Virus record (IMG/VR): IMGVR_UViG_3300048800_000059
Coordinates: 1-34,806 of that record
Source: a virus
Strand: one strand, 5' to 3'
Length of the DNA stretch: 34,806 bases
Made by a program: the position numbers and the translations under genes. This document shows positions 5,236 through 26,386 of this stretch, piece by piece. The notes beneath the pieces are model-generated. The model was given only the letters and a program-made list of their open reading frames with translations, was not told the origin of the DNA and made no database searches. The first letter of the stretch is position 1. Each line of letters starts with the position of its first letter.

Positions 5236-5248
5236 GGAGCGGAACCGG

Positions 5249-6766
5249 TCAGGCGACGTTGCTCAGGATCGCCATCGCGACGGGGGCCCGGTTGATGAAG
5301 GCCTCCACCGAGCGGATCTCGAACTCCTTGCGGGGGCCGCCGCCGACGGTGTTCGCCACGCGGCCGGTCGCGTAGTCGAACTGGGTGGTGTCGCGCAGGG
5401 TCCGGCACTCCAGCACGGAGCTGATGTTGGCCTGCGGGAACGGCACTCGGTCGCTCCGGGCGATGATCGTGCCCGGCGGCACCGAGGTGTGGACCTCGAT
5501 CGGGACGGTGACCCCACCTGCGTAGGTGTTGACGACCTGCCCGACCCGGCCACCGGCGGTGACGTTGACACGGCCGGTCTCATCCGTCTGCAGGTAGGTC
5601 ACGGCGGAGGGCTGGTTCAGGACCAGGTTCGCCAGCTCCTGCGCCTGAGCTCCGTTGACCATCAGTGCGGTCGGGGAGCACTTCACCGCGTTCCACAGTC
5701 CGGCGAAGATCGTCTCGGCCTGGGTGATCGAGCCGCCGGTCAGGGTCAGCCCGGCGCCGAGGCCGTCGATGAAGATGGCCCCGTTCGCCGTCGCCGTGCC
5801 GGGGGTGACGAACTGGCCGGCGGTGTTGTAGTCGCCGGTCAGGGAGGAGATCAGCCCGTTGAACTGCTGGCCCTGCCCGGTGGCGACCCCGGAGCCGTTG
5901 TCGGCGGCGAGGTTCGGGGTGCCGGGGACCTGCCCGAACAGGTCCGGGCAGACCGTGTTGCTCGGCAGGCCGTTGTTGGCGACGATGGTGCTCGTCATCA
6001 GCAGCGTCGCGACCGTGGTGGTCGTGTAGTAGAAGTACGGCGCGGAGCCGTTCGGGGTGTAGAACCAGTCGTAGGCGACGGCGCCCTTGACCGCGGCGAG
6101 GGACAGCGCGATCGACGCTGTGGTGCCGGTCGTGGTGAGCGCCGCACTGATCTGCGCCCGGGAGTTGCCGACCACCGTGGGCGCGGAGGGGTTCGGCGGG
6201 TAGAAGTACCCCATCGCCGTGCGGGCGGCGACGACGACCTTCTGTGTCGTCGAGGCGGTCATGGTCCCGCCGGTCGTCGACGGCGTCGCGGTGATCGCCC
6301 CGGGCTGGGCCAGGTTGTACGACTGCGCGCCGACCAGGGCCCTGTCCTCGCCGATCAGGTACTGGTTCAGCGTGGTCATGGTCTTCTCGGCGTACGGGTC
6401 GTACAGGCCCTTGGCCAGGTCGTAGGCGTCCTGGGTGACCAGGCCCGCCAGGGACAGCGGCGCGTAGGGCGCCTGGAAGTCCTGCTCGCTGTCGATCGTC
6501 TCGCCGCCGGCGTAGTCGAACCCGGCGAACGGGGACGGCTGCAGGTTGGTGACGTTCATGAACGCGCGCCAGATCGCGTTCGGGTTGCCGTCGGTGGATG
6601 CCTTGCGGGGCACCCGGTCACGGAACGGGGTGACGACCGGGATCAGCCGGACGATGCCGGTCAGGTCGTAGGAGTACGCGCCAGTCGCGGTCAGCAGGCC
6701 GGTGGTCTGCGCCTTGGCGATGGCGGCGAGGGTCTCCTCGGTCGTCTCGTCGAACGTTGTGCTCAT
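5249..6766 (-). CDS. Major capsid protein, HK97 fold with an inserted Ig-like domain
   Basis: The product is 505 aa and forms the icosahedral shell. The N-terminus (LLTATGAYSYDLTGIVRLIP) leads to an N-arm and then an E-loop-like stretch. The C-terminal part has the usual capsid features: LWNAVKCSPTALMVNG, then GRVGQVVNTYAGGVTVPIEV, then IIARSDRVPFPQANISS. Residues about 195-250 (AVKGAVAYDWFYTP followed by YFYYTTTTV) look like an Ig/fibronectin-like domain inserted in the core, a known decoration in actinophage capsids. At 505 aa it is longer than minimal HK97-type capsids, in line with that insert. GAAGGAAG precedes the ATG at 6766. It follows the protease and scaffold-like genes and is followed by a strong hairpin. 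Confidence 0.85.
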   Translation of the reverse strand: MSTTFDETTEETLAAIAKAQTTGLLTATGAYSYDLTGIVRLIPVVTPFRDRVPRKASTDGNPNAIWRAFMNVTNLQPSPFAGFDYAGGETIDSEQDFQAPYAPLSLAGLVTQDAYDLAKGLYDPYAEKTMTTLNQYLIGEDRALVGAQSYNLAQPGAITATPSTTGGTMTASTTQKVVVAARTAMGYFYPPNPSAPTVVGNSRAQISAALTTTGTTASIALSLAAVKGAVAYDWFYTPNGSAPYFYYTTTTVATLLMTSTIVANNGLPSNTVCPDLFGQVPGTPNLAADNGSGVATGQGQQFNGLISSLTGDYNTAGQFVTPGTATANGAIFIDGLGAGLTLTGGSITQAETIFAGLWNAVKCSPTALMVNGAQAQELANLVLNQPSAVTYLQTDETGRVNVTAGGRVGQVVNTYAGGVTVPIEVHTSVPPGTIIARSDRVPFPQANISSVLECRTLRDTTQFDYATGRVANTVGGGPRKEFEIRSVEAFINRAPVAMAILSNVA

Positions 6767-6797
6767 GCGGATTTCACTTCCTTCAGGGCATGGGTGT

Positions 6798-6819
6798 GGC
6801 GCGCGTCGAGCTGCGCGCC
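6798..6819. other. Short hairpin in the scaffold-capsid gap
   Basis: The 73-base gap between the scaffold-like gene and the capsid gene holds a perfect 7-bp inverted repeat (ggcgcgc at 6798-6804, gcgcgcc at 6813-6819). It might mark an mRNA processing point ahead of the highly expressed capsid gene, but in GC-rich DNA such pairs arise by chance. Confidence 0.35.
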
Positions 6820-6839
6820 GCGCTGCGGGGGTGGGTGGT

Positions 6840-8363
6840 TCAGATGGGCTGGCCGGCCGCGTGGATCCGCGTCAGGGCCTCGGAAGCCACCGCCATCATG
6901 TCGCCGGCGACGGCCTCGCGCTCGGGTGCTGTGCCAGCGGAGTCGTACTTCTCCCGCATCTTCATCACCAGGTCGTCCGCCGGGGTTCCGGTCGGCCGGT
7001 TCAGCCCGCGCATCAGGTGCGCCGGCGGGAGCTGCCCGTTCGATGTCACCTTCGACGGCGCCGGAGTCTCTCCCCACGCGGTGAGCCGGGCGTCGACCGC
7101 CTTCAGTACGGTCGCCGTCACCTCATCCGCGAGGCCACTGAGAATCTCCTCGCGCGCCTTCGCAACAGCGCCTGGAGCGGGGACCGCTGCCACCGGGGCG
7201 GCAGCGGCGTCTGCGGGGACCCCGACGGTCGCCGACGGCGCCGGGGTCAGGTCCTTCGCCGCGTCGTCCTTGCCGGGGGCGTCGGCGACGGGGATCAGGT
7301 CGGTGGGGTCCATCATCCCGACGAGCTTCCCGTTCTCGTCGTGGACGGGGAGCATCGGGTCGCCCTTGGCCTTGGCGACATCGTCGGCGCCGTCGCCCTC
7401 GGTGGCGCTGGTGACGCCCTCCTCGGCCTTGGCCTCGCCCTCGTCGGCCGGGGCCGACGGGGCGTCGGCGGGCTCCTCGCCGCCCCCGTGGGGTGCGACG
7501 ACCGGGCCGTCGTTGTCGGGAATGTCGCCCTTGGCGACGTCCTCGACGACGTCGACGGCGGTGGTGGGTGCGGTCATCTGCGTCTCCTTGACGACTGGTG
7601 CGGCGGGGAGTGAGGCGAGGACGCCGGTGAGCTTGTCGACGGCGTCGCGGATCGCGGTCTCGTTCGTGGCGGACAGGACCCGGCCGGACTTCAGGACCGG
7701 CCCGGCCCATTCGAGCTCGGCCATCGCGGTCAGCACCGACGGCTGGGCGAGGCCCTCGGCGGCCGAGGCCACGGTCTTGACGACGCCCTGGACGGCGTCG
7801 GGGGCCAGGAACGGCAGCCACGCCGACGGCAGGTCCCCCAGGACGGCCTTGGTGACGGCCTGGTCGAACGCCGCGGCGGCTTCCTCCCCGGTCAGCACCT
7901 CGTTCGTCTCCGACACTGCGTAGGGGGCCAGGACGCCGATCGCGTAGTCGATCGCGGCGCACGCGTCGCCGAGGTCGAACACGTTGTCCATGTCCCCGGC
8001 GTCGCCGGTGTCGGCCTCCTGCATCTCCCGGTTGCCGAGGAGCTCCAGGGCGTTCTTGGCCCGGGCGAGCCGGCCGGCCCAGGCCTGCGCGGTGGCCGCG
8101 TCGATGGCCTCCCACGCCGGCGAGCCGGGCACGTTCGGGTCCCCGGCGGCGGGGACGTCCGGCTCGGCGAGGAGCTCGACGTCGGCCGGGTCGTCGCCGT
8201 CGGCCTTCGCCAGGGCCTGCTCGGGCTCGACGACGAGGTCGCCCTGCGCGGCTGCCTTGGCGATCAGGAACCGGGTCCCGTTCGCGCCCCGGCCGACGGC
8301 GGCGAGCTTGTCGATGTTCGCGTCGACGATCTCGGTGAACTCGTCGTCAACCACAGCGGTCAT
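6840..8363 (-). CDS. Scaffold-like protein next to the prohead protease
   Basis: The product is 507 aa. Residues 1-240 are mixed and include MDNVFDLGDACAAIDYAIGV; the middle (about 270-400) is low-complexity Ala/Asp/Glu/Pro, and the C-terminus is helical, ending SEALTRIHAAGQPI. Acidic, Ala-rich, disordered-helical proteins encoded between the protease and the capsid gene usually act as scaffolds for prohead assembly. No scaffold family motif is certain, so this is inferred from position and composition; an alternative is a protease-associated minor head protein. The ATG at 8363 overlaps the protease TGA (TGATG), so the two are translationally coupled. Confidence 0.6.
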   Translation of the reverse strand: MTAVVDDEFTEIVDANIDKLAAVGRGANGTRFLIAKAAAQGDLVVEPEQALAKADGDDPADVELLAEPDVPAAGDPNVPGSPAWEAIDAATAQAWAGRLARAKNALELLGNREMQEADTGDAGDMDNVFDLGDACAAIDYAIGVLAPYAVSETNEVLTGEEAAAAFDQAVTKAVLGDLPSAWLPFLAPDAVQGVVKTVASAAEGLAQPSVLTAMAELEWAGPVLKSGRVLSATNETAIRDAVDKLTGVLASLPAAPVVKETQMTAPTTAVDVVEDVAKGDIPDNDGPVVAPHGGGEEPADAPSAPADEGEAKAEEGVTSATEGDGADDVAKAKGDPMLPVHDENGKLVGMMDPTDLIPVADAPGKDDAAKDLTPAPSATVGVPADAAAAPVAAVPAPGAVAKAREEILSGLADEVTATVLKAVDARLTAWGETPAPSKVTSNGQLPPAHLMRGLNRPTGTPADDLVMKMREKYDSAGTAPEREAVAGDMMAVASEALTRIHAAGQPI

Positions 8364-8875
8364 CAGGTGCTCCTCGAGCGGCGTCGGGTGGCTGTCCCCT
8401 GCGGGGACCAGCTGGAGATGTGCCCGTTCTTGTACAGCTCCCAGCCGGTCTCGTCGCCGATGGCGCCGACCAGCCAGTCCCCTGCCTTGACGACGACGTC
8501 GGCGCCGCCGACGTCCTTGGTGACCCAGTCCGGGCCCCGGTAGATGTAGGACTCGACGACGTCGAAGTGCCCCTCGGTGCCGTCGGCGTGGAACAGGTTC
8601 GTGCCGGCACCGGCGCGCAGGTAGCCCCACGCGGTCTTCTCGAGCTCGACGTCGGTGATGAAGTCCCGGGCCCCGTCCGCGCCCTTGGTGATCTTCTCGT
8701 CGCGGCCGGCCTGGTAGGCGACGCCGAGGACGTACCGCTGCTCCGCGGACTCCTTCAGGACGACCTCGCGCTCGGGCGAGACCGGGCGCAGCGGCACCTC
8801 GACGGGGGCCGGGTCGGCCTTGGCGAGGCTGACCTGCTCGCCGTCGACGTGCAGATGCACGTGGACCTCGGTCAC
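8363..8875 (-). CDS. Prohead protease, XkdF-like
   Basis: The product is 170 aa. It carries the XkdF-type putative phage serine protease pattern: RYVLGVAYQAGRDEKITKGA (about 48-66), FHADGTEGHFDVVESYIYRG with conserved His103, and then VVKAGDWLVGA and SSWSPQG near the C-terminus. This family processes head proteins during capsid maturation in phages related to the PBSX/SPP1 line. The start is GTG at 8875, overlapping the previous gene's TGA by four bases (GTGA). It lies in the usual place between the portal module and the scaffold/capsid genes. The C-terminus ends in a basic TRRRSRST. Confidence 0.8.
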   Translation of the reverse strand: MTEVHVHLHVDGEQVSLAKADPAPVEVPLRPVSPEREVVLKESAEQRYVLGVAYQAGRDEKITKGADGARDFITDVELEKTAWGYLRAGAGTNLFHADGTEGHFDVVESYIYRGPDWVTKDVGGADVVVKAGDWLVGAIGDETGWELYKNGHISSWSPQGTATRRRSRST

Positions 8876-9321
8876 TGGTAGAACCCGGCGACGTATAAGC
8901 CGGCGACCGTCGCGGCGGCGGTGCCGAGGACCAGGGTCAGGGCGGCGCCGGCGGGAATCTGCGGCTGGGTCTCGAAACCGAGCAGGTTCAGCGGGCCGGT
9001 GTCGCCCTTGCAGTACCCGTCGAAGATCGGCGTGGCGGCCTGGAGGAGCTGGGCGAGGAACTGCGTCGCCGAGTTGGATCCGCAGTACAGGTCGGTGACG
9101 TAGCCGATGTAGGGGGTGCCGGTCAGCGGGTTGTTCCCGGCCGGGACCGTGACGATCGTCGGCGAGGTGTACCCCGACGCCAGCGACGGGTTCGCGGTGA
9201 AGGTGAACAGGGTCTGCCCGTAGGCCGCCGCGCCGGCCGTCGACTTGGCGGTCGGGCTGATCGACCCGGCAGGGTCGGTCGGGACGGACAGCTGCCCGCT
9301 GGAGCCGAATCCGGGTGGCAT
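8872..9321 (-). CDS. Hypothetical virion-region protein
   Basis: The product is 149 aa. The N-terminal 40 residues are Gly/Ser/Pro/Thr-rich, followed by predicted beta-strands (QTLFTFTANPSLASGYTSP) and a hydrophobic Ala/Val/Leu-rich C-terminal segment (ALTLVLGTAAATVAGLYVAG) that could be a strand pair or a membrane-like helix. I do not recognise a family. It is encoded between the membrane protein and the protease and is coupled to the protease by a four-base overlap, so a minor structural role is likely. Confidence 0.6.
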   Translation of the reverse strand: MPPGFGSSGQLSVPTDPAGSISPTAKSTAGAAAYGQTLFTFTANPSLASGYTSPTIVTVPAGNNPLTGTPYIGYVTDLYCGSNSATQFLAQLLQAATPIFDGYCKGDTGPLNLLGFETQPQIPAGAALTLVLGTAAATVAGLYVAGFYQ

Positions 9322-9823: not shown

Positions 9824-12800
9824 TCAGCCGTCGCCGCCGCTGTCGTCGGGGGCTGTGCCGGGGTCGACCATGACGGGGCTGGACGCGCACCGGCAGCGGG
9901 GGTGGATGGGGACGAGCGACCCGTCGTCGACGGGGTAGGGGTTGTCGTCGGCGACGGCGACGCATTCCTCGCAGGCCCCGTCGGCGAGGAGTACTTCGAA
10001 CTGGTCGATGCCGTTCGCGCCGTAGGTGTCCATCGTGGCCGCGTCCATGCACCGGGCGGTCTCGGTCGTCGCGATCAGCTCGGCCTGGTCGCCCCAGAAC
10101 CCCACGTCGCCGAGGGAGCCGGCTACCTGGTCGACCGAGCTGCCTGCGGTCAGGCCGTCGGCGATCGCGTTCCCGAGCCGGTCCAGGGCGCTGCCCTCGA
10201 CGCCCCCGATGGTCACGCCGGCGCCGTCGAGGAGGTCGGCGAGGCCACCGTCGGCGGCCTGCAGCGCCGCCCCGGGGTCCCCTGGTGTCCAGGTCGACCA
10301 GTCGATCCCGGCGGCGACCTGCCCGACAGCGGAGGTCACGTACCCGCCGGAGGCTCCGGCGGCGGTGTGCAACCCGGCGGTGTACGAGTCGGCGATGAGC
10401 CGGCGGAGCGTCTCCTCGAGCTGGGCGGTGGACGCGGCGGGGAGGGCGTCGCGGGCAGCGGCGGCCATCGCGTCCCGGGCCGAGGATGCGTCCTTGCGGA
10501 CCGTCCGGTCCGCCGCGGCAGCAGCGGTCCGGACGGCTCGGTCGGGGAAGGCGGCCCGCAGGCCCTGGGCGAGCTCGGCGGCGTAGTGGTCGGTCAGGCG
10601 CAGGTCGAAGGCGTGGACGGGCAGGTTGCCCGCTTCACGCCACCGGCCTTTTGGGCCTGCCTTGACCACCACCTCGCCCTGTAGCGCGGCGACGACGACC
10701 TCGGCGTCCTGCCCGAGCTCGGCGCGGACCGCCGGGTTCCCGGCGAGCTGGGCCGGATCCCACCAGGCGACGGTCTCGATGCAGTCCCCGTCGGGGTCGT
10801 CGGGGTTGAGGACCCGGCCGGTGGCCAGGTTGATCGGCAGCGACGTCTCGGAGGGCACGATGATGACGAACCCCTGGTAGATCCCGTCGGCGCTGGTCCA
10901 GGTCTGGCCGTTCTCGAAAGCATGCGGGACGGCCAGGTCCAGGTATGGGGCCAGCGAGCAGCCGGTCTCCTCCTGCCACTCCCGCCACGCCGCGTCGAGC
11001 GGGGTCTCCCCGTCCTCGATGTGCCCGCCGGGCATCTCCCACGTCCCGGACGCGGGGTCGGACGGGTCGAACGCCCGCTGGAGCATGAGGACCCGGCCGG
11101 TGTCGGCGGCGACGACTGCCAGGCCGGCGGCGACCAGCTGCCCGGTGTCCTTGCGGATCAGCGCCCGGCCCCGGTCGTTCAGCCGGTGCGCGAGCACGGG
11201 AGGCAGGGTGGTGAAGGTGAACGGCCGCCACTTTCCGGCCTGCCGGCGGGCCTTGACGAACCGCAGGAACGCCCCGGCTTCCTTGGCGACCTGCTCGCCG
11301 CCGTTGGCCTCGGTCAGGTCCCGGTGGATCCGGTTGTCGTCGTTCTCCTCGAGATGCTCCACGTCGATGCCCGCGTTCCCGAGCTCGGCGACCTCGCCGC
11401 TGTCGGCCTCGTCGGCCGCGGAGTCCTTGGCGACCTGGTCGCCGAGGTCGGACTCGCCGGGATGCTCGTCGTCATCGTCGTCGTCGGGGCCGAGCAGCGG
11501 GTTCCCGTACGCGCCGGTCTCCGCGGTCAGCCCGGCGGTGATCTCCTTCAGGACCGCGGCGTTGTCGGCGACCGCGTCGGCTGCCACGGACGCGGCGTTC
11601 TCCGCCGGGTAGTTGACGACGGCGAGGGGCAGCGCGTCCGGGGGCTTCTGCGGGGCCACGCCCTCGACGGGGGAGAACGGCTTGTGCGGCAGCGGGGCGC
11701 CGGGCAACGGCAGCGCCGTCTCCGGGTCGATGAGGCCCTGCACGGCCTTCAGCGCGGACACCGGGATCGGGCCGGCGCGGGCGGTGTAGATGTACCGGCC
11801 GATGACCTGGTCGGGGGGGTCCTCGAGCCCGTAGACCCGGGACCGGACCTCCGACGGGCTGATGACCCCGGACTGCATGTACACCTCGTCGGCCTGCGCG
11901 GTCGCGAGCCGGTCCTCGGTCTCCTGGCCGGTGTCGAAGTTGAACTCCAGCGGCAGGCCGAAGTCGTCCTGCAGGGACTCGGACAGCATGTCCTGGACGT
12001 GCTGGATCAGCGGCAGGTCACCGATGCGGAACTGCACGTCGGCCTGGGTCTCCCCCGAGGCCCGGTTGACGTCCTCGGTGAACCCGACGTCGGCGGGGGT
12101 GACGTGGTAGGCGGCGCAGGTCTTGCGCATCAGGAACAGGGAGAAGGTGTCGTTGAAGTCCTTCTCGTTGCTCCACGCGAACGTCGTGCCGTGCGGCACC
12201 CATTTGATCTGGTGCTTGACGTCGGGGTCGCCGTAGAGCATGGCGTCCCACGCGGCCTGGAAGTCCTCGATCTGCTGCGGGTTCCAGCCCTCCGGTGCGC
12301 CGGCGAACGCCTCGGGGACGTTGCCGGCGGTGAACCGGGACAGGAAGTAGGTCTGGAAGCGGAGGTCGAGGTTGGCGTTGAGCAGGATCGACTCCAGCGG
12401 CGACTTCCCGTAGGGACTGTCCGTCGCGGGCCGGAACGGCACGTAGATCAGGTCGTCCTCGGTGAGCCAGTTCCACGGCACGCCCTGGACGAACTGCACC
12501 CAACCCGGCGCGGGGGCGTCCGGCTGGTCGCCCCAGTCGTCGATCAGCGGCGCGAGCGTCGTCCCGTCGACGTGCTTGAGGCCGATGACCCGGCCGGCGT
12601 TGTTGCGCATCCGGTACAGGCAGCCGGCGTCGTAGGCGAGGACGTCGAACAGGTACTTGGCCAGCCACGACTTGAATCGGAGCTTGCGGTCCGGCTTCTT
12701 CAGGATCCGCCGGCCGAACTCGATCGCCGCCTCCGCGTCGCCGCCGAACCCGGGCAGCGCGGTCAGGTTCCAGTCCAGCGACCGCACGGAGTCGATGCGG

Positions 12801-13120
12801 TGCCAGATGCAGATCTGGGCGAAGTCGTACGCGGCGACGAGGCCCTTGAGTGTGTCGAAGGAGACCCGCTCGTGCGAGCGTGGCCGGGCGGCGATGTTGT
12901 ACCCGGTGAGGAAGTCGTGGCCGCGGGGCTCCCGGGAGTACCCGTCGTGGGGCGCCATCGGGGCGCCGGGGCCGAACGTGGTCGTCCCCATGCCTTGGAT
13001 GTCCAGGGAGTCGGTGACCTGCCGCAGCGGGCCGCCCACGGACTTGGCGACCTCCAGCTCGGTCGACCGCCGCGCCTTCGCCGGCTTCGGCTTAGTCTTC
13101 GTCACGGAGCGCTTGGCCAT
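9824..13120 (-). CDS. Portal - Nudix - MuF fusion protein
   Basis: The product is 1098 aa. Residues about 60-480 are an HK97-type portal (for example SLDWNLTALPG, DSPYGKSPLESILLNANLDL, SRFTAGNVPEAFAG, GETQADVQFRIGDLP). After an acidic linker (GPDDDDDDEHPGE, about 544) comes a Nudix hydrolase domain, about 660-815, with a complete Nudix box: G699, E705, R713, E714, E717, E718, G720. The C-terminal part, about 835-1082, is MuF-like, with TETARCMDAATMDTYG, then ACEECVAVADDNP and IHPRCRCAS. Portal and MuF proteins are often adjacent or fused; a Nudix domain between them is unusual. The TGA of the terminase overlaps its ATG at 13120. It should assemble as the DNA-packaging vertex. Confidence 0.85.
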   Translation of the reverse strand: MAKRSVTKTKPKPAKARRSTELEVAKSVGGPLRQVTDSLDIQGMGTTTFGPGAPMAPHDGYSREPRGHDFLTGYNIAARPRSHERVSFDTLKGLVAAYDFAQICIWHRIDSVRSLDWNLTALPGFGGDAEAAIEFGRRILKKPDRKLRFKSWLAKYLFDVLAYDAGCLYRMRNNAGRVIGLKHVDGTTLAPLIDDWGDQPDAPAPGWVQFVQGVPWNWLTEDDLIYVPFRPATDSPYGKSPLESILLNANLDLRFQTYFLSRFTAGNVPEAFAGAPEGWNPQQIEDFQAAWDAMLYGDPDVKHQIKWVPHGTTFAWSNEKDFNDTFSLFLMRKTCAAYHVTPADVGFTEDVNRASGETQADVQFRIGDLPLIQHVQDMLSESLQDDFGLPLEFNFDTGQETEDRLATAQADEVYMQSGVISPSEVRSRVYGLEDPPDQVIGRYIYTARAGPIPVSALKAVQGLIDPETALPLPGAPLPHKPFSPVEGVAPQKPPDALPLAVVNYPAENAASVAADAVADNAAVLKEITAGLTAETGAYGNPLLGPDDDDDDEHPGESDLGDQVAKDSAADEADSGEVAELGNAGIDVEHLEENDDNRIHRDLTEANGGEQVAKEAGAFLRFVKARRQAGKWRPFTFTTLPPVLAHRLNDRGRALIRKDTGQLVAAGLAVVAADTGRVLMLQRAFDPSDPASGTWEMPGGHIEDGETPLDAAWREWQEETGCSLAPYLDLAVPHAFENGQTWTSADGIYQGFVIIVPSETSLPINLATGRVLNPDDPDGDCIETVAWWDPAQLAGNPAVRAELGQDAEVVVAALQGEVVVKAGPKGRWREAGNLPVHAFDLRLTDHYAAELAQGLRAAFPDRAVRTAAAAADRTVRKDASSARDAMAAAARDALPAASTAQLEETLRRLIADSYTAGLHTAAGASGGYVTSAVGQVAAGIDWSTWTPGDPGAALQAADGGLADLLDGAGVTIGGVEGSALDRLGNAIADGLTAGSSVDQVAGSLGDVGFWGDQAELIATTETARCMDAATMDTYGANGIDQFEVLLADGACEECVAVADDNPYPVDDGSLVPIHPRCRCASSPVMVDPGTAPDDSGGDG

Positions 13121-14757
13121 CAGGCGCTCCTTCGGTCATCGGGTCGGTTGGCGTGGAACGCGGCTTGGCGGGCTGCGCGCATCCGCTCGGTGTCGTCGGC
13201 CGGCTCGGGCTCGTCCGGGACGGCCCGCTCGGCTGCCGCGGCTTCGGCGTTCGCCGCCGCGAGTTGGCGCAGGTACGCGGACCACTCGGCGGCACCGCTG
13301 CCGTCGATCAGCAGCTTCTTCAGCCCCTGCGACACCGCGTCGACCTGGTCGTCGTGGGCGCCGTTGGGGAACGCCGCGGCCTCGTCGATGAAGGCCTCCA
13401 CGTCGAACCCGGGGATCTCGATGCCGTCGGCGGGCAGCAGCACGTTCCCGGCGGCGATGAACGGGGCCACCGCGTTCGCCCGGGCGTACTTGGATCCCTC
13501 CGGCTTGACCGGGACGATCCCGCCGATCTCCTGCCGCAGCGTGTCGATGACAGCCGCGCCGTTCGCGGCTTCCTCGACGTACTTCGCGGCGGCCTGCGGC
13601 CACTTCGCGGTCATCGCCCGGAACGCGGTGACCGTGTCGGTGAACGACATGCGGCGGCAGATCAGGTCCAGGACGTACACCTCGGCCTTGCGGCGGGCCA
13701 GGACCGCTCCGACGACGAAGTCCGAGCCCTTGGTGTCCTTGAACGCCAGGTCCCAGGACTGCGCGACCTCGTCGAACCCGTCGACCCGGTACGCGCCGTT
13801 ACCGTCGATCGTCCACGGCAGCTCGTGGTAGCGGCGACCCCACCAGGGCCGGAGCCACACGTTCCCGGACTCCGGGGACGGCCGGCCCTGGTACATCGAC
13901 GTCCACGTCCGCGCCGGGGAGGACAGCCTGCGCAGCTCCCAGTCCGCCTCGGTCCGGCCGCGGACCGAGCGGAGCCATTCCCCGGGCGCGCGGCCGAGGG
14001 GGTCGACCTCGCCCTTGGACGGGTTGTGGTCGGCCTGGGCGGGGATGTTGATGACCGTCCACTGCTTCCCGTCGGGGCCCGCCTGCAGCCGGCCGGCGAG
14101 GTCGTCCTCGTGCCAGCGGGTCTGGATCAGGATCACCGGTGAGCCGGGGGCGAGGCGGGGCAGCGCGGTGCCGGTCCAGAAGTGCCACACCGACTCGCGG
14201 AACGCGGGTGAGTCGGCGTCCTCCTGCCGGCCGTACGGGTCGTCGAGGAACAGCACGTCGACGGGGTTGCCGGTCAGCTTCCCCGACGCCATCGACGAGG
14301 TACGCAGGCCGCCGATGTTGCCCTCGATCGTCCACCGGCGTTTCGCCCAGGACGCCCTCGACACCCTGATTCCCAGGTCGAGGGTGCCGTCGGCGCCGGA
14401 GTTGTTCTCGATGAGCTCGCGGACCCGTCCGCCGAACTGCTCGGACAGGTCGTTGTCGTAGCAGGCGATCGCGATCCGCAGCGCCGGGTCGCGGACCAGC
14501 ATCCACAGCGCCGCGGGGATGGTGACCGCGGATGTCTTTCCCTCCTGCGGCGGCGTGGAGATGATCAGCCGGCCGTCGGGTTCGGTCAGCGCGCGGACGA
14601 CCTCGGCGTTGATCAGCTCCAGCGCCGGGGTGCGGACGGTGGGGAACGGGTTGATCGCCTCGGCGAGGTCCAGCGGCGTCGGCCACTGTCGGGGCGCGTC
14701 GACGGTCCGGACCCCGAACTGGCGTTCGGCGATCGCGTACTCGTTGATCGCGGCCAC
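13120..14757 (-). CDS. terL: Terminase large subunit
   Basis: The product is 545 aa and is the ATP-driven DNA packaging motor with a C-terminal headful/cos nuclease. Walker A is STPPQEGKTS (67-76) and Walker B is VLFLDDP (168-174). The coupling region has IQTRWHEDDLAGRL (211-224). The RNase H-like nuclease has SWDLAFKDTKGSDF with Asp336, and HDDQVDAVSQGL with Asp469/470. There is no ATG nearby, so I chose GTG at 14757, two bases after the stop of the preceding gene. Upstream in-frame open sequence is an arginine/proline-rich shadow of the repeat gene and is not coding. The TGA overlaps the portal ATG. Confidence 0.9.
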   Translation of the reverse strand: MAAINEYAIAERQFGVRTVDAPRQWPTPLDLAEAINPFPTVRTPALELINAEVVRALTEPDGRLIISTPPQEGKTSAVTIPAALWMLVRDPALRIAIACYDNDLSEQFGGRVRELIENNSGADGTLDLGIRVSRASWAKRRWTIEGNIGGLRTSSMASGKLTGNPVDVLFLDDPYGRQEDADSPAFRESVWHFWTGTALPRLAPGSPVILIQTRWHEDDLAGRLQAGPDGKQWTVINIPAQADHNPSKGEVDPLGRAPGEWLRSVRGRTEADWELRRLSSPARTWTSMYQGRPSPESGNVWLRPWWGRRYHELPWTIDGNGAYRVDGFDEVAQSWDLAFKDTKGSDFVVGAVLARRKAEVYVLDLICRRMSFTDTVTAFRAMTAKWPQAAAKYVEEAANGAAVIDTLRQEIGGIVPVKPEGSKYARANAVAPFIAAGNVLLPADGIEIPGFDVEAFIDEAAAFPNGAHDDQVDAVSQGLKKLLIDGSGAAEWSAYLRQLAAANAEAAAAERAVPDEPEPADDTERMRAARQAAFHANRPDDRRSA

Positions 14758-14759: not shown

Positions 14760-17387
14760 TCAGATGAAGCGGAGCGTGACCGGGCCGAGGACCAGCACGG
14801 ACGCGTCGGTGACCTTCAGGTAGAGGACGACGGTCGTCGAGGGCGCCGGCACGTACGGGCCGGACGGCCCGCAGGGGCACAGCGCCCAGTGCTGCCCGAG
14901 GCTGTCGGTGAACCACGTCGCCGGCAGGGTTATCGCGGACTGGACGGGGACCGGGTCGGAGGGGTTGAAGATGGCGAACGCGACCGGGTCGGGGGTGGGG
15001 TCCAGGCCGAACAGGGACGTGACGCGGACGGCGACGTTCTGGTCGGAGGTCGCGAGCTGGGCGTGCACGGCGCCTCCCGTCCGGGCGGTTGCGGTCCAGG
15101 TGGCCCCGCCGGTCCACGCCGACCACAGCGGGGCGACCTGGCGGATCTTGAAGTCGGGTTTTTGGCCGGTGCCCTTGTGGTTGACCAGGCGCAGGACCAG
15201 GCCGGCGAGGAGCCGGATCCGCTGCCCGATCGCCGCCCCGGCCCGGGCGGTGATGGCCGGGGTCGCGCGGAGGGCCTGGCCGAGCTGGGTGGCCAGCCGT
15301 CGGGCCACGGTGGCCGCCGCCGCGCGGAGGCTCGCTGTGACGGCCTGCGCTGCACTGGGCCCGGACGCCTGCGCCAGGGCGCGCGTGGCTCGCACAGCCC
15401 CGGACAGGGCCCGTCCTGGGGCCTGGGTGGCTTTCAGCCCGGCGTTCACAGCCGCTTGCAGGGTCCGGGCGGGTGTCTGCACAGCGGTCTTCGCGGCAGC
15501 GACGGCTGCTGCCCCGAGCCGGGCGGTCGTCGCCGGCGCGACCCGGGCGGCCTGGGTCAGCACGGTCAGGGCCCGTGCGGCGGCCGACTCGGCGACCCGC
15601 AGCGACGCGGCGGCAGCGGACTTGACGGTCCGGGCGGGGGCCTGCACGACGGGCAGGGCTGCGGCGACAGCCTGGGCGATCCGGGCCGTGGTGGTCTCCA
15701 CGGCCCGGGCTGTCTGCAGGAACGCCGTCGAGTTGACGACGGTCAGGTGCGCGACCTCGACCGCCCGCAGGGTCTGGGCGACAGCGGCGAGGACCGCCCG
15801 CTGCGGGGCCTCGACGGCCCGAAGGCTGCCGGTGACCGCGGCGAGGATCTTTCGGGCCGGCGCCTCGGCCACGGACCTCGTGGCGGCGACGGCCTGCGCG
15901 ACCCGGGCCTGGGTGGTCTCGACCACGGCCAGGGTCTGGGTGAACGCGACCGCGTTCGTGACGTGGAGCGCGGCGGCCTCGACGACCTTGACCGTCTGGG
16001 CGACGGCGGCCTTGACGAGACGGCCGGGGGCCTCGGTGACGACGACCTTCGCGGTCACGGCCTGGCCGACGCCCCGGCCCGCCGTCTCGACGACCCGGGT
16101 GACCGTCCCGACAGCCGCGCCGACCAGCCGGAGTGGCTGCTCGGTCACGGCACGGGTCGCCGAGACGGCAGACAGCAGGACCCGGGCCGGCGCCTGCGTG
16201 CGGGCGATCGTCGCGGCGACAGCGGCCTTGATCTTGGGACTGGTGGTCTCGCCGACCAGCAGGGTCTGGAACTTGGCGAGCAGCGACGTGACCGTCCCGG
16301 CGGGGGCCTCGAGGACGGACCTGGTCGCGGCCACAGCGGCCTTGATCACGCGGGCGGGAGCCTCGGTCGCGGCGAGCTTGGCTGTGACCGCTGCGGCGAC
16401 CGCGCGGCCCGGGGCCTCGGTGACCTTGGCCGTGGCCGTGACCGCCTCGCCGGCGGCCTTGGGGACGGTGGTCTCGGTGGTCTTCACTGTGCCGGCGATC
16501 GCGGCCAGGATCGTCCGCTGCGCGGCCTCGGCCACTGCCAGGGTGGCGGTGATCGCGGCCTTCAGGATCGGGACGGTCGTCTCGGTCCTGGTCAGCTTCG
16601 CGGTCACGGCCTGCAGGACGGTCCGCAGCGGCGCGGTGGCGACGAGCAGCGTCTGGGTGAACGCGCCGAGGGTCGCCGGCCCGACCCAGTCGACGGTGGA
16701 GTACCCGAACCGGGGGACGAACATGTGGGTGAGCAGGCCTGGGGTGTTGATGAAGCCGACGTTGAACGTGTCGATGACCCCGCCGCTGGTGAACGCACCG
16801 GAGCCGGAGTCGAGGAGCGTCGTCCCGGCCGCGTTCCAGATCCGCAGGTAGCAGGTGGAGGCGGGGACGTCGAAGCACGCCTCGACCTGGTAGGTGGTCC
16901 CGGCGACGATCGTCAGCGCAGAGGTGAACCGGGCGGTGTGGACGTCGCGGAGGACCAGCACCCCGGCGTTGAAGACGACCTCGCCTTGGACCGTGGCCCC
17001 GAGCCGGACGTTGAAGATCGGGTTGTTCGCGTTCGTCGGCAGGTCGTTGTACTGGAAGGTCATGGCGACGAAGACCCGGCCGAGCCCGCCGGCCACGCCG
17101 TTGAGCAGGGTCGCGAACCTGTTCGCCGTGCCGGTCGTCCCGGCCGTGTCGACCCGGGAGCCCATGACGTAGCCGGGCGCGAGGACCGTGTTGTCGTAGA
17201 TCCACGTCGCGGACAGGGTCAGCGCGCCGCCGTCGACGATCCCGGAGCTGGACGTGAACGCCGCCGCGTTCGCACCTTCGGCGAAGGTCTCAATCTCCTT
17301 GACGGCCTGCTCGATGAACTGCGGCGGTGAGGCGACGACGGGCAACCCGGGAGCGCCGGGCAGGTGCGGGATGGTCGGAATCGGCAT
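14760..17387 (-). CDS. Giant repeat protein with lectin-like head and 18-residue-repeat stalk
   Basis: The product is 875 aa. Residues about 30-235 look like a jelly-roll/lectin-type beta-sandwich (LSATWIYDNTVLAPGYV, VFVAMTFQYNDLP, TYQVEACFDVPASTCYLRIW). Residues 240-735 are about 27 tandem copies of an 18-residue unit, for example KAAVAATRSVLEAPAGTV and AAAVTAKLAATEAPARVI. Residues 736-875 are a C-terminal beta-rich domain with GGATWTATARTGGAVHAQL. I recognise no named family; a virion fibre or stalk protein is the best inference. The head binds glycans or the host surface, by analogy only. It lies just upstream of terL with no gap, and its neighbour encodes the same repeat type. Confidence 0.75.
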   Translation of the reverse strand: MPIPTIPHLPGAPGLPVVASPPQFIEQAVKEIETFAEGANAAAFTSSSGIVDGGALTLSATWIYDNTVLAPGYVMGSRVDTAGTTGTANRFATLLNGVAGGLGRVFVAMTFQYNDLPTNANNPIFNVRLGATVQGEVVFNAGVLVLRDVHTARFTSALTIVAGTTYQVEACFDVPASTCYLRIWNAAGTTLLDSGSGAFTSGGVIDTFNVGFINTPGLLTHMFVPRFGYSTVDWVGPATLGAFTQTLLVATAPLRTVLQAVTAKLTRTETTVPILKAAITATLAVAEAAQRTILAAIAGTVKTTETTVPKAAGEAVTATAKVTEAPGRAVAAAVTAKLAATEAPARVIKAAVAATRSVLEAPAGTVTSLLAKFQTLLVGETTSPKIKAAVAATIARTQAPARVLLSAVSATRAVTEQPLRLVGAAVGTVTRVVETAGRGVGQAVTAKVVVTEAPGRLVKAAVAQTVKVVEAAALHVTNAVAFTQTLAVVETTQARVAQAVAATRSVAEAPARKILAAVTGSLRAVEAPQRAVLAAVAQTLRAVEVAHLTVVNSTAFLQTARAVETTTARIAQAVAAALPVVQAPARTVKSAAAASLRVAESAAARALTVLTQAARVAPATTARLGAAAVAAAKTAVQTPARTLQAAVNAGLKATQAPGRALSGAVRATRALAQASGPSAAQAVTASLRAAAATVARRLATQLGQALRATPAITARAGAAIGQRIRLLAGLVLRLVNHKGTGQKPDFKIRQVAPLWSAWTGGATWTATARTGGAVHAQLATSDQNVAVRVTSLFGLDPTPDPVAFAIFNPSDPVPVQSAITLPATWFTDSLGQHWALCPCGPSGPYVPAPSTTVVLYLKVTDASVLVLGPVTLRFI
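15183..16670 (-). repeat. Degenerate 54-bp (18-codon) tandem repeats, about 27 units
   Basis: The encoded consensus is roughly xAAVxATxxVxEAPxRxV. Most units are exactly 18 residues, four are 19, and three are 20-residue variants with F-x-Q-T and E-T-T (examples: TNAVAFTQTLAVVETTQARV and VNSTAFLQTARAVETTTARI). The DNA is diverged between units, so this is an old, coding-level repeat rather than a recent slippage array. Confidence 0.85.
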
Positions 17388-17401: not shown

Positions 17402-17959
17402 TCAGTTGAGGGCCTGCAGAGCGATCCACTGCGCCTGGATCGAGTTGGTCGCCGACGACGTGCCGCAGGTCGCGGACAGGATCAGGCCCTGCGCCGTGGT
17501 CTGGTCGGCGGTCGCCGCGACGGTCCCACCCATGCTGATGACCTGGGAGGCGAGGACCGCGGTCGTCGGCCAGACGACGAAGCCGTTGCCGGTCACCGAC
17601 GACCCGGACGCGGCGACCCCGAGGGAGCGGAACGCCAGGGTGAACTCGAAGTACCACGGCGACGAGGCGGGGATGACACCGCCGGAGGGGACCACCGCGG
17701 ACGCGCCGAGGAGCAGGTTCGACGACGGCGTCGCGGACTGGCCGTAGCGGGGGGTGAAGGTCCAGTTGATGCCGGTCGCCGACTGGCAGATCCCGCCGCC
17801 GCTGATCTTGTACGCCTTGCCGGCGCGGGGGTCGAACGCGGGGATGAAGGACCACAGGTTCGGGGTCCACAGGTTCGCCTCGGCGGTGAACGCGGACAGG
17901 GCGGTGAACGACGCGGGGGGGACGTCGATGGGCAGGTCCATGAAGCCCTGACGAGCCAT
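17402..17959 (-). CDS. Small structural protein between the two repeat proteins
   Basis: The product is 185 aa. It starts MARQGFMDLPIDVPPASFTA and is beta-rich with many Ser, Thr, Ala and Gly (ISGGGICQSATGINWTFTP, then PWYFEFTLAFRSLGV). The profile is that of a virion surface or fibre-associated protein, with no catalytic motif. It is encoded between the 887-aa and 875-aa repeat proteins in the same operon and may form part of the same structure. I do not recognise a named family. Its ATG at 17959 has GAGGAG upstream on the minus strand. Confidence 0.65.
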   Translation of the reverse strand: MARQGFMDLPIDVPPASFTALSAFTAEANLWTPNLWSFIPAFDPRAGKAYKISGGGICQSATGINWTFTPRYGQSATPSSNLLLGASAVVPSGGVIPASSPWYFEFTLAFRSLGVAASGSSVTGNGFVVWPTTAVLASQVISMGGTVAATADQTTAQGLILSATCGTSSATNSIQAQWIALQALN

Positions 17960-17969: not shown

Positions 17970-20633
17970 TCAGGCGCGGACGGACCAGGTGGGCTCGTCG
18001 ACGTCGACGGACCAGGTCGGGGCGGTGCCGGCGACCGTGAGCACCTCGGGGGTTTGGTTGGCGGTGGCGAACAGGTTGGTCACGAACCCGACCAGCCGGG
18101 TCGGCGCGGCAAGGAGCCGCGCCGCGATCGCGTGCCGGGCGCGGGCCACGACGACCTTCACGGCCGGGGCGAGGCGGGCGGCGATCGCGTGGCCAGCCGA
18201 GCGGGCGGGGGCCTGGACTGCGCGGACGAGCTGGGCCAGCGCCGGGTTGCTCGCCCGCGGGGCCGGGCCCTGCAGGGCCGAGCTCGCGCGGCCGGCGGCG
18301 GCTCGCAGGATCTTGGCAGGGGCTTGCACGGCTGCCCGGCTCGAGGTGATCACCTGGCCGGCGCGGGCCACGGTGGCCTCGACGGCGCGGGCGGTCTGCA
18401 GCAGGTTCTCGACGAGCTGGGTCGCCGACGGGGCGGCGGCCTGCGCGGCCCGGGCGGTGGACGTCGCTGCGGCGGCGAGGCGCCGGGCGGGCGCCTGCAG
18501 GGCTGTGGAGGTGATCCCGCTGGCCTCGGCTGCCCGCCCAGCGGTCGTCGCCGTAGCGGTCCTGGTCCCGGCGACTACGGCGCGCAGGGCCCGGGCGGGG
18601 ACCTGGACCGCGGTCAGTGTCTGCAGCCGGGCTGTCGAGTTGCCCAGGGCCTTCGCGACGGTCTCGGCGGCCCGCAGCGTGGCGGCGGCAGCCGACGCGG
18701 CGATCCGGGGCGCGGGGCCCTGCACCGCGGCGGTGACCTTCCCGACGGCCGAGGCGGCGCGGCGGGTCACCGTCGAAACGGCGTGGGCGGACTGGAACTG
18801 CTCGAGGGCGTTCACCGCGGACCGGGCCGGGGCCTGCAGCGCCGCCGGCCGCCTGGCGAGCACCGCGGCGAGCAGCGACCGGACCGGGGCCTCGATCGCG
18901 CGGATCGTGGCCGCCACGGTGACGAGCTCGTCGAGGACGGCCATCGACCGGTGGATCGTGACCAGGTCGACGTAGAACACCTGGCCTGCGGTCGACGAGC
19001 CCGTCGTGAACACGTCGACCGTGTTGGTGGTCGCGGTCGTCGTGAACGTCAGCGAGAGGAACTGCCAGGCGTTGTTGACCGACGAGGCCCGGCTGAGAAC
19101 GGACGTGCCGTCGACCGTGAACTGCACCGGGGGGCAGCCACCGGAGGGCACGTACACCCATAGGGCGACGGTGATGATCGTGCCGACGGCCGGCTCGACG
19201 AAGTCCAGCTTGGTCCCGGTCAGCCCGGACTGGTTCCCGGTCAGGGTCGGCAGGGTGACCTGCATCGACCGGAAGCCGTCCTTGACCTGCGCCGTGGTGT
19301 TCGCCAGCACCGGTGCGGGCGAGCCGGTGGTGTACCAGGCGCCGACCGAGCCGCCTTCGAACGTGGACGACTCGTCGGTCAGGTACGGGAACGACGGCGG
19401 GGTCTGCGCCTGGTTCGGGTTGTGCCGGACCAGCATCTTCCGCACGGGGGTCACGGTCGGGTTGACGCCGAGGGACTGGAAGAACGCGGTCCCGCCGCCG
19501 CCGCCGCCGGTCTGGGTGTTCCAATAGTCCACCGACAGGGGCATCAGGAGGACGAGGGTGCCGAGCGGGTAGGTGCGGCCCAGCGCGGGGATCGACAGGG
19601 TCGTCGTGGTGGCTGCGGCAGTGAGGTTGACCCGCTGGTTGACGCCGAACGGGTCGAGGGCGATCAGCGCGCCGTTCGCCATCGAGTCGCCGCCGGACGG
19701 CTGGTTGTGCGGGATCTCGTTGACGTGCAGCGTCGTCCCCGACGTGTACGCCGACGCCAACGTGGTCTGCATCAGGTTGTGGTTGGCGTCGTACCAGCAC
19801 ACGTCGTCGGGGGGGACGGCCTGCGACTGCCAGATCCCGACCAGGGCCTGCATGTGGGCCAGGTGCGAGCCGGCGCCGCTGTCCGGCGGGTTCACCGCGA
19901 CCGACGTGCCGACCTCGGGGTGGTTCCAGATCGCGATGCTGTTCCGGGCCGCGATGCCCGCCGCCGTCGCGGAGCCGCTGGTCGCCGCGTAGATGTCGAA
20001 CCCGAAGTAGTCGATCGAGGCGGCGTCGCCGTGGACGGTCGACAGGATCCAGGCGTCCTGGGCCGCGTTGGACAGGCTGGCGAAGTTCTGCCCGGCCATG
20101 ATGTTCCCGAACAGCACCGGGTGGGTGCGGGCCGGGTAGGTGTGGCCGTTGAACGTGCCGCCGCCGTTGACCAGCGACTTGATCGACACCCCGCCGGGGA
20201 GCACCCCCGAGCCGGGGACGATCATCATCGCGTTCATCGTCTTGTAGATCGCGCCGGTCAGCGTCAGGCCGTTGACCACGTCACCCGGGTTGGGCTCGTG
20301 GTAGGGGCAGACCTTGTTGCCGTCGACGTCGTTGCTGATGCCGTTGCTGCCGGACCCTGCGCGGCCGGTGATGCCGTCCAGGATCGTCGTGAACGCGGCG
20401 GTCTGCGGGCCGGCGCCGTTGGTCCCCAGGTAGTCGCCGATGAACCCGTTGGTGCCGCCCGACCCGTTGCCCGCCATGACCGCCGTGAACGACAGGATGG
20501 TGCGCGTCGTGCCGTCTACGGGGACGGCCCCGGCCTCAGAGTCTGAGAACGCGCGGATGGTGTTGGTCCGGGCGACCGGGTTGAGGACGCCGACCCCAGG
20601 CGTGGAGCAGCCGTAGCGTTTCGCGTCGGCCAC
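17970..20633 (-). CDS. Giant tail fibre-like protein: glycosidase-like head, carbohydrate-binding domain, 18-residue-repeat stalk
   Basis: The product is 887 aa. Residues about 1-280 resemble a clan-A (GH26-like) TIM-barrel glycosidase, with a candidate acid/base in YHEPN (Glu113) and a candidate nucleophile in AIWNHPEVGTS (Glu240); YFGFDIYA is also typical. A short beta stretch follows (TLHVNEIPHNQ). Residues 420-562 look like a CBM4/9-type sandwich (STFEGGSVGAWYTTGS to QVFYVDLVTIHR). Residues about 565-850 carry about 14 copies of the EAPxR/QAPAR repeat. The C-terminus has a PTWSV duplication. Inference: a receptor-binding/depolymerase fibre. The catalytic assignment rests on two short motifs only. 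Its repeat type matches the 875-aa protein downstream. Confidence 0.7.
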   Translation of the reverse strand: MADAKRYGCSTPGVGVLNPVARTNTIRAFSDSEAGAVPVDGTTRTILSFTAVMAGNGSGGTNGFIGDYLGTNGAGPQTAAFTTILDGITGRAGSGSNGISNDVDGNKVCPYHEPNPGDVVNGLTLTGAIYKTMNAMMIVPGSGVLPGGVSIKSLVNGGGTFNGHTYPARTHPVLFGNIMAGQNFASLSNAAQDAWILSTVHGDAASIDYFGFDIYAATSGSATAAGIAARNSIAIWNHPEVGTSVAVNPPDSGAGSHLAHMQALVGIWQSQAVPPDDVCWYDANHNLMQTTLASAYTSGTTLHVNEIPHNQPSGGDSMANGALIALDPFGVNQRVNLTAAATTTTLSIPALGRTYPLGTLVLLMPLSVDYWNTQTGGGGGGTAFFQSLGVNPTVTPVRKMLVRHNPNQAQTPPSFPYLTDESSTFEGGSVGAWYTTGSPAPVLANTTAQVKDGFRSMQVTLPTLTGNQSGLTGTKLDFVEPAVGTIITVALWVYVPSGGCPPVQFTVDGTSVLSRASSVNNAWQFLSLTFTTTATTNTVDVFTTGSSTAGQVFYVDLVTIHRSMAVLDELVTVAATIRAIEAPVRSLLAAVLARRPAALQAPARSAVNALEQFQSAHAVSTVTRRAASAVGKVTAAVQGPAPRIAASAAAATLRAAETVAKALGNSTARLQTLTAVQVPARALRAVVAGTRTATATTAGRAAEASGITSTALQAPARRLAAAATSTARAAQAAAPSATQLVENLLQTARAVEATVARAGQVITSSRAAVQAPAKILRAAAGRASSALQGPAPRASNPALAQLVRAVQAPARSAGHAIAARLAPAVKVVVARARHAIAARLLAAPTRLVGFVTNLFATANQTPEVLTVAGTAPTWSVDVDEPTWSVRA
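18084..18941 (-). repeat. About 14 degenerate 18-codon repeats in the fibre-like gene
   Basis: Units such as AEASGITSTALQAPARRL, ASAAAATLRAAETVAKAL and NPALAQLVRAVQAPARSA share the A-rich helix followed by a [EQ]-A-P-A-R turn with the repeats in the 875-aa protein. They are less regular, with several units of 19-22 residues, and the Q-A-P-A-R form dominates instead of E-A-P. Confidence 0.8.
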
Positions 20634-20650: not shown

Positions 20651-21253
20651 TCACGCTGTGGTCTGCCCCTTCGTAGCGTGGTAGTAGGCGAGGTTGTAGC
20701 AGGCCCGGCACAGTCCCTTGGCTTTCACGGGCCGGTCGGGGTGACAGGTCGCCGGCGCCTTGGCGTGCGTCGCGTCCCATTCCATCTGGTAGCACGAGTG
20801 GCACAGCCCGTTGGCCCGCATCGGCCGGTCGGGGTGGCACTCGGCCGCGCTACGCCCGACCTGGCGGGTGAGTTCCCGGGACAGCCCGAGGCGTTCACGC
20901 TGGCAGGGCTTGCAGTAGCGCCGGGTCGTCTTGCCCTTGAAGGTCGAGTAGGGGCCGCCGCACTTCGGACAGTTCGGCTGCAGCATGTGCTGGTTCCGGC
21001 CTCGGCCCTTGGCTTGCCGGTCCCGCATGTTGTCGCCCGCGGTGCCCTCGAACAGGTGCGTCGGTTCGATGCACGGCGGGTTGTCGCAGTGGTGGCAGAT
21101 GTGCATGCCCTCGCCCGGGAGGCGCCCGTTGGCGTCGACCCAGGCGAGAACGTGCGCGTAGATGATCCGCTTGCCGAACCGGGTGGCCTTGACCCTGCCG
21201 TAGCCATTGGGCTGGCAGTACTGGGTCCACTCGATGCAGGGGGTCTGAGTCAT
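20651..21253 (-). CDS. HNH endonuclease with tandem zinc ribbons
   Basis: The product is 200 aa. The HNH_3-type core is at about 6-85: CIEWTQYCQPNGYGRVK, then AHVLAWVDANG, then the catalytic strand MHICHHCDNPPCIEPTHLF. After it come a CPKCGG...YCKPC zinc ribbon (95-117) and two copies of a short CHPDRPxxAxGLCxxCY module (about 139-155 and 170-186). The zinc modules probably bind DNA. A GGGGG precedes the ATG at 21253. It sits between a tail/collar-like gene and the 887-aa repeat gene and is most likely another free-standing homing-type endonuclease of this phage. Confidence 0.88.
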   Translation of the reverse strand: MTQTPCIEWTQYCQPNGYGRVKATRFGKRIIYAHVLAWVDANGRLPGEGMHICHHCDNPPCIEPTHLFEGTAGDNMRDRQAKGRGRNQHMLQPNCPKCGGPYSTFKGKTTRRYCKPCQRERLGLSRELTRQVGRSAAECHPDRPMRANGLCHSCYQMEWDATHAKAPATCHPDRPVKAKGLCRACYNLAYYHATKGQTTA

Positions 21254-21276
21254 GCCCCCAATATAGCAGGAACTGA

Positions 21277-21915
21277 CTACTGAAACTGCACTTGGAGTGT
21301 ACTCTGCAAAGTGTTCCCGGTCGACAGGTTGATGACGGCGAAGTCGAAGTGCGCGAGCAGCGTCCCACCGGTCGTCGCGGTCACGCCGGGCTGGTTGCCG
21401 GGGGTGACGACGTCGGCGGCGGCGATCGTCGCGATCGCGGAGGAGCCGTTCACGCCGCGGACCACGGTCAGCGCGGTGGTGCCCGAGCCGGCGGTGACCT
21501 GCAGAACCTCGGTGCGGATCTGGATGAAGTTGTTGCCCGGGGTGAACGTCGCCGCGGTGTTCAGCGTCGTCGCGACGGCGGAGCCGACGACACCACCGGC
21601 GGCGACAGCGGCGACGGCGGGCTTGGTCGTCGAGTCCAGCAGCGCGACCTCGGTGACGGCACGCGACCCGGACGCGGTCAGCGTGGCGACGACCTGGTAG
21701 GTGTCCTGGGTCGTGGTCGTCGTGACCGCCGAGCTGGTGCCGGTCTGGCGGGCCTCCGCGGTCTCGGCGAACAGGGCCACGTCGGACACGGCGGCGGTGA
21801 ACTGCGCGGACGGGACGCCCCAGCTGACGACCTTGCACTCCGCCTGGGTGGGCGTGGCGCCGATCATGCGGCCGGACAGGACGTCGCGGCCCTTGGAGGT
21901 GATGACAGACGCCAT
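21277..21915 (-). CDS. Tail/collar-like structural protein
   Basis: The product is 212 aa. It begins MASVITSKGRDVLSGRMIGA, the typical start of small actinophage tail or collar proteins. It is beta-rich, with QVTAGSGTTALTVVRGVNGS (a recurring phage structural motif), and it ends STGNTLQSTLQVQFQ. No enzyme motif is seen. CAAGGGGA lies upstream of the ATG at 21915. It heads the large structural gene group and is followed by an inserted HNH gene. Confidence 0.65.
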   Translation of the reverse strand: MASVITSKGRDVLSGRMIGATPTQAECKVVSWGVPSAQFTAAVSDVALFAETAEARQTGTSSAVTTTTTQDTYQVVATLTASGSRAVTEVALLDSTTKPAVAAVAAGGVVGSAVATTLNTAATFTPGNNFIQIRTEVLQVTAGSGTTALTVVRGVNGSSAIATIAAADVVTPGNQPGVTATTGGTLLAHFDFAVINLSTGNTLQSTLQVQFQ

Positions 21916-25192: not shown

Positions 25193-25479
25193 GGTCCCCC
25201 CAGCGCGAGCGCGTCCTCGGCCAGCAGCCGCGTCAGGTCGTAGGCGACCTGCCCGCGCACCGTCTCCGAGCAGTCGGAGTAGCAGTCGTTGCCCGGCTCG
25301 CACCCGTGCCCGGCCATGCGCCAGTCGAACAGCGCGTCTCGGACCGGGGTCAGGTGCTGCGCGAGCAGGCTAGATCGGACCCTCTCGCGGATCTGGGCCG
25401 CGTCGGGCTGATGCCACCACTGAGGCGGCGGCCGCCACGCAGCCTCGGCTGTCAGCGCGTCCATCTCCTCAACGTTCAC
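25189..25479 (-). CDS. Hypothetical protein
   Basis: The product is 96 aa from GTG 25479. It includes RPPPQWWHQPDAAQIRERV and GHGCEPGNDCYSDCSETVR, a Cys cluster, and a helical end. I do not recognise a family. Both ends overlap neighbours by four bases, which is good evidence of translation. Confidence 0.6.
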   Translation of the reverse strand: MNVEEMDALTAEAAWRPPPQWWHQPDAAQIRERVRSSLLAQHLTPVRDALFDWRMAGHGCEPGNDCYSDCSETVRGQVAYDLTRLLAEDALALGGP

Positions 25480-26138: not shown

Positions 26139-26386
26139 CAGCCCGCCACGGTGAAGTCGGTGGGCTGGCGTTGCCCGACGCGGCGGGGTTTGATCCCGGT
26201 GTGGTCCTGGAAGCGGCGGCAGATCACGTCGCAGTACGCGGGGTCGACCTCGATCAGGAAGGCCAGCCGGCCGAGGCCGTGGCAGGCGATCAGCGTCGTC
26301 CCGGATCCGGCGAACGGGTCGGCGACCGACTCCCCCGGCCGGGTCGAGTTCTCCAACGCCCGGGTGACGAGCTCGACAGGTTTCAT
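26138..26386 (-). pseudogene. C-terminal remnant of a DNA methyltransferase
   Basis: Only the SAM-binding end of an N6-adenine/N4-cytosine-type methylase is left: MKPVELVTRALENSTRP, then VADPFAGSGTTLIAC (motif I, residues 22-35) and EVDPAYCDVICRRFQDHTG. The catalytic (D/N)PPY motif and target-recognition region are missing. The frame continues upstream for a few codons as TEHP, which in intact methylases precedes TMKPVEL. So this is the end of a longer gene whose middle has been lost. Its ATG overlaps the stop of the ParB-like ORF (ATGA), so translation is possible, but no methylase activity is expected. Confidence 0.8.

Follow-up and report, generated by a model that had tools for sequence, protein, structure and literature searches.

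A predicted helical array of 18-residue repeats in a putative adhesin of a high-GC tailed phage

The viral DNA analysed here, taken at its full length of 34,806 nucleotides as the window (IMG/VR record IMGVR_UViG_3300048800_000059), encodes a protein of 875 residues with a long central array of tandem 18-residue units. The question raised by this locus is which structure such an array adopts and what it does for the phage. The gene, named p here (14760-17387, minus strand), consists of a lectin-like N-terminal domain (residues 1-238; 16674-17387), the repeat array (residues 240-735; 15183-16670) and a conserved C-terminal domain (residues 741-875; 14763-15167), all on the minus strand. The GC content of p at the three codon positions (0.69/0.58/0.94) is in line with that of the genome and the protein is conserved in a second phage; therefore, p was taken as a real gene. 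The long plus-strand ORFs over 14889-17330 were regarded as antisense artefacts of high GC, the minus frame being better supported both by conservation and by the GC content at the codon positions.

The repeat unit and its helical periodicity

The original prediction, made from the sequence of the window, had placed about 27 tandem repeats, mostly of exactly 18 residues, in residues 240-735 of the ORF running from 17387 to 14760. This placement (16670-15183 in the window) was exact, and the period was recovered by self-comparison, with the strongest self-similarity at a lag of 18 residues (z = 12.3), followed by lags 36, 74 and 56; the autocorrelation at lag 11 was weak (z = 3.5) and 22 was outside the top lags. 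An iterated 18-column profile detected 23 units with a summed score of 550, compared to a mean of 4.5 (sd 4.8, maximum 16) when residues 240-735 were shuffled. Three stretches of low score (607-625, 662-679 and 698-735) resemble about four further degenerate units, so that the number proposed was a fair one. Successive scored units were spaced by 18 residues with few exceptions, namely a single one-residue insertion (before residue 313), three two-residue insertions (before residues 369, 479 and 553) and the low-score stretches.

The consensus of the unit is A3 (23/23), V4, A6, T7, L8, V10, E/Q12 (21/23), A/T13, P14 (12/23), R16 and V/I/L18. A Pro starting each helix had also been proposed, but P14 is present in only 12 of the 23 units and the weak AlphaFold2 models carry the helix through it. 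The units share a mean identity of 35% at the protein level (14% expected by chance) and of only 52% at the DNA level, and Tandem Repeats Finder detected nothing over the DNA of the array, which points to an old, diverged and maintained pattern and not to recent DNA slippage. As anticipated, the repeat fell outside the named families, since neither it nor the rest of p matched Pfam, NCBIfam, PHROGs or PDB sequences; weak PDB matches to designed helical proteins, versicolorin reductase and SOBER1 were judged to be due to composition or chance. The array thus represents a new, previously unnamed type of repeat, although the phage protein that carries it is of a known kind.

The secondary structure of the array was approached through its hydrophobic moment in 18-residue windows, which peaked at 100 degrees per residue (z = 7.3), in agreement with the 18/5 helical periodicity that had been predicted; the 7+11 pattern predicted along with it appeared as a 4-3-4-3-4 spacing of hydrophobic residues within the units. 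As any 18-residue repeat gives power at multiples of 20 degrees, the dominant harmonic of the mean unit profile was checked, and the largest was the fifth, corresponding to 3.6 residues per turn. The 4-3-4-3-4 pattern fitted best when rotated to positions 4, 8, 11, 15 and 18, where V/I/L/F made up a fraction of 0.62 versus 0.26 overall. A peak at 95-100 degrees was found in 5/5 arrays from p, the adjoining protein q and both homologues in a second viral contig, G001 (z from 3.7 to 7.3), and persisted in q and the homologues even though the 18-residue register is poorly kept there. No strand peak (160-180 degrees) was seen in any of the five arrays, and the two terminal domains of p, which served as controls, gave no helical peak.

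The array is rich in Ala, Thr and Val, with a net charge of +37 over 496 residues. Asp, Cys, Met, Trp and Tyr are all absent, and Asn (0.6%) and Gly (4.4%) are scarce; the lack of Asp and the low Asn and Gly leave few turn formers. AlphaFold2, run for monomers only, predicted the array as mostly helix both in the whole protein (two sequences; mean pLDDT 37) and in six units with an alignment built from other repeat blocks (mean pLDDT 52). As these values are low, the helix is credited to the sequence statistics, which support an alpha-helical array, and we infer anything above secondary structure. If fully helical, the array would be about 74 nm long (496 × 1.5 Å), a matter of arithmetic only.

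The three two-residue insertions precede units of a particular kind, which read TS + LLAKFQTLLVGETTSPKI (residues 367-386; 16230-16289), TN + AVAFTQTLAVVETTQARV (residues 477-496; 15900-15959) and VN + STAFLQTARAVETTTARI (residues 551-570; 15678-15737), all on the minus strand. The units beginning at 369, 479 and 553 carry KFQT, FTQT or FLQT in place of the usual A-V-x-A-T and have no Pro at position 14. The first insertion has a counterpart in the homologue of p (SN + LQSRFQTLLV), with FQTLLV common to both proteins. Two-residue insertions in trimeric coiled coils are known to form beta-layers (PMC4786415), and those of p may do so too, which is a testable idea.

End domains, neighbouring genes and relatives

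A Foldseek search with the model of the N-terminal domain placed it among legume-lectin and GH131 folds (E = 5e-5, probability 1.00), but with TM values no higher than 0.40 and a model pLDDT of about 50; no Pfam match was obtained up to E = 10. The domain thus looks like a lectin of the concanavalin-A type, with a beta-sandwich suggested by fold comparison of a weak model. The C-terminal domain belongs to no known family and is 49% identical in the homologue of p. At their short C-terminal ends, p and q appeared alike around a W-S motif on inspection, and this might be the end proximal to the virion.

Upstream of p, the gene q (17970-20633, minus strand; 887 aa) encodes an N-terminal domain of no known family, a CBM_4_9-like domain (residues 423-545) and then helical repeats as in p (residues 566-850; 18084-18938, minus strand), similar to the p array in composition and helical periodicity; these repeats were absent from the original prediction. 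The CBM_4_9 assignment in q is below the Pfam cutoff (18.0 versus 25.9 bits), and a homologous domain in another phage, described below, passes it (29.1 bits). Residues 1-390 of q match no family; conserved H-E-P and E-x-GTSVA motifs, kept between q and its homologue, might mark a glycosidase, but this assignment was not retained as no family model supports it. Between q and p lies r (17402-17959, minus strand; 185 aa). Downstream of p, the large terminase subunit (13120-14757, minus strand) starts with a GTG two bases past the p stop codon and is followed by a portal-NUDIX-MuF fusion of 1098 aa (9824-13120, minus strand), which marks the head module. From q through r and p to terminase, the genes follow one another closely and share one direction. 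No tail-fibre match, nor one to any other structural-protein family model, was found for p, q or r in PHROGs and Pfam. The portal protein matches those of the Arthrobacter phages Sonali and Mufasa8 (41-43% identity), annotated as a portal-MuF fusion or a MutT/NUDIX hydrolase; with these as the nearest named portal relatives and a GC content of 72%, the host is probably actinobacterial.

A DNA pattern of two successive units was found in one other viral contig, G001 (58 kb; L017, L020). Both phages have in common the gene order 212-aa protein (21277-21915, minus strand, in the window; at the head of the cassette in both), q, r, p, terminase and portal-NUDIX-MuF fusion, and G001 also carries a separate tape measure gene together with capsid and tail genes. 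The p homologue in G001 (P0001; 1188 residues) is the only close one found and is 47% identical to p in the N-terminal domain; its array is split by two extra non-repeat segments, which resemble separate domains. An additional domain, possibly beta-helical, precedes the rest of the q homologue, and the r homologue is 66% identical. As p has no PHROG match and G001 has a tape measure gene of its own, p was not considered a tape measure protein. A further r homologue (67% identity) was located on a third phage contig, L021 (6968-7519, plus strand), close downstream of the terminase, and in that stretch neither p nor q appeared before the contig end.

Other searches were negative. In annotated phages, tblastn with p, q, r, both homologues and the 212-aa protein gave nothing, whereas the same search with the repeat alone was uninformative, the query having probably been masked by the low-complexity filter. 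Scans of genome contigs yielded no relatives, the repeat was absent from the ORFs checked in terminase relatives (L004-L014), and the pattern match L024 was attributed to chance. The repeat is thus rare among the IMG/VR patterns, GTDB patterns and annotated phages searched, from which records close to the window may have been left out.

When the N-terminal domain of p was used alone as a query, a match was obtained in a phage of 46% GC (L030; IMGVR_UViG_3300031902_000083), with about 27% identity and E values of 8e-10 to the p homologue and 4e-8 to p itself. The protein concerned (5009-9106, plus strand; 1366 aa) contains a CBM_4_9 domain, then the lectin-like domain and then 36 tandem 20-residue repeats, whose periodicity is that of a strand (180 degrees, z = 9.2), a helical peak being absent. 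Its gene lies two genes after a tail-fibre-matching protein and is separated by one gene from terminase and portal. Like p, this protein joins a homologous lectin-like domain to a long array of repeats and is encoded ahead of terminase and portal, but its repeats are strand-periodic and of 20 residues, and its lectin domain is distant. Homology between the helical 18-mers and these beta 20-mers was looked for, and no profile similarity was detected.

Possible structures of the array

The array resembles 18/5 coiled coils, whose periodicity is derived in PMC4786415 from heptads with a delocalised stutter (7+7+4), in its 18-residue unit, its five hydrophobic positions and its period of 3.6 residues, and differs from them in being Ala-rich and in carrying Pro in about half of the units. 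It is also like the alpha/beta coiled coils treated there, among which is a Streptococcus pyogenes prophage protein (2C3F), in being a long, regular helical array with few two-residue insertions, one of them common to the homologue, although the underlying repeat is 18 and not 7. Such helices could instead lie along a lipid or cell-wall surface, as in apolipoprotein A-I or perilipin 4, and be adhesive themselves without packing into a rod. The amphipathic helix of perilipin 4 is long, repetitive, net positive and weakly hydrophobic, with 11-mers rich in Thr, Val and Ala (PMC5889406), and the basic, Asp-free array of p, with its weak bulky hydrophobicity, shares with it, with alpha-synuclein and with apolipoprotein A-I the very long Ala/Thr/Val-rich amphipathic repeats, and with the latter also the Pro punctuation (PMC5889406). 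However, the 11- or 22-residue repeat of these proteins was not found in p, a phage protein with a lectin-like head, where lag 18 dominates and the periodicity is 18/5 instead of 11/3. The bulky stripe is narrow (5 of the 18 positions), as in coiled coils, and the two probable domains splitting the array of P0001 fit a spacer better, so that we consider a surface-lying array rather unlikely.

It is quite unlikely, too, that each unit forms one short helix and that the chain turns at the E-A-P sites to build a helical-hairpin solenoid or bundle. Pro does fall regularly near the same position, and the unit length would suit one helix plus a turn, but very few turn-forming residues are present, lag 36 is weaker than lag 18, which argues against a two-unit alternation, and long continuous helices are seen in the weak models. 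Intrinsic disorder, or a basic Ala-rich tail binding nucleic acids, would account for a low-complexity, basic, Pro-containing region of low pLDDT; against this, the mean hydrophobicity (0.56 versus 0.44 for the charge-hydropathy line) lies well within the folded range, even diverged units retain the residue pattern, and the array, encoded in a cluster of structural genes, has on either side a domain that is conserved and probably rich in beta structure, making this explanation very unlikely. Finally, 18 residues per turn of a beta-solenoid, as in left-handed beta-helices or RTX rolls, would agree with the unit length, the abundance of Thr and Val and the strand-periodic repeats that follow the homologous domain in L030. 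Nevertheless, strand periodicity is missing from all five helical arrays, Gly, Asn and Asp are few and the L030 repeats bear no profile similarity to those of p, so that a beta-solenoid seems highly improbable.

A proposed stalk for a virion adhesin

We favour, as fairly probable, the reading of p as a tailed-phage adhesin made of a lectin head, an oligomeric 18/5 helical rod and a conserved C-terminal domain, the host of the phage being a high-GC bacterium and probably an actinobacterium. The N-terminal beta-sandwich would bind a sugar of the host surface, and the roughly 27 amphipathic repeats would form a long, nearly straight rod, a shape that the original prediction had considered possible. 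Long stretches of the rod would be continuous helix, lying alongside one another in an oligomer and packed through the V4-L8-V11-A15-V18 stripe, with the C-terminal domain ending the chain. The sister protein q would bear other, probably carbohydrate-directed, domains on the same type of rod. The lectin-like head, together with a relative in L030 that carries a different array in a tail-fibre cassette, suggests a stalk role, and the array is most likely a spacer; it probably serves as a stiff stalk, up to about 70 nm long, that keeps the binding domain clear of the particle. A modular adhesin carried on the virion, as we infer p to be, fits the lectin-like head, long array, conserved C-terminal domain and tight q-r-p-terminase run. 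A comparable combination, of sugar-binding-type domains and a long repetitive shaft encoded beside structural genes, is found in phage tail fibres that bear concanavalin-A-like or CBM domains, although neither a tail-fibre anchor domain nor a fibre family was detected in p.

Several points speak against a rod-like adhesin. Both AlphaFold2 models are of low confidence, so that the rod and its oligomer are proposals; about half of the units contain Pro, which is uncommon within coiled coils; p, q and r match no structural-protein family model; the lectin assignment comes from fold comparison of a weak model; and a single close homologue was found.

If the rod is rigid and reaches about 70 nm, the array would be a long and genetically simple spacer, and straight 18/5 arrays of this length would offer a natural test of rod straightness and of the sites where Pro and two-residue insertions are tolerated. 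Related heads are joined to helical 18-mers in p and to beta 20-mers in L030, which suggests an exchange of complete stalk types among phages. A bolder proposal, which we hold tentatively and regard as doubtful, is that p represents a new class of fibre shaft, namely an 18/5 coiled coil that is homo-oligomeric, almost free of supercoiling, Ala-rich and Pro-punctuated, with beta-layer hinges of two residues, onto which varied sugar-binding heads are spliced and which can be swapped for a beta-repeat shaft at the same gene position.

Other genes were observed around the cassette. An HNH endonuclease gene (20651-21838, minus strand) lies inside it, between q and the 212-aa protein, and may be a homing-type insertion, since L020 apparently has an unrelated ORF at the equivalent position. 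PHROG matches were obtained for RNase E, a ParB-like protein and a DnaB-like helicase in the region upstream of the structural genes (25479-26138, 26386-26700 and 30523-32238, minus strand).
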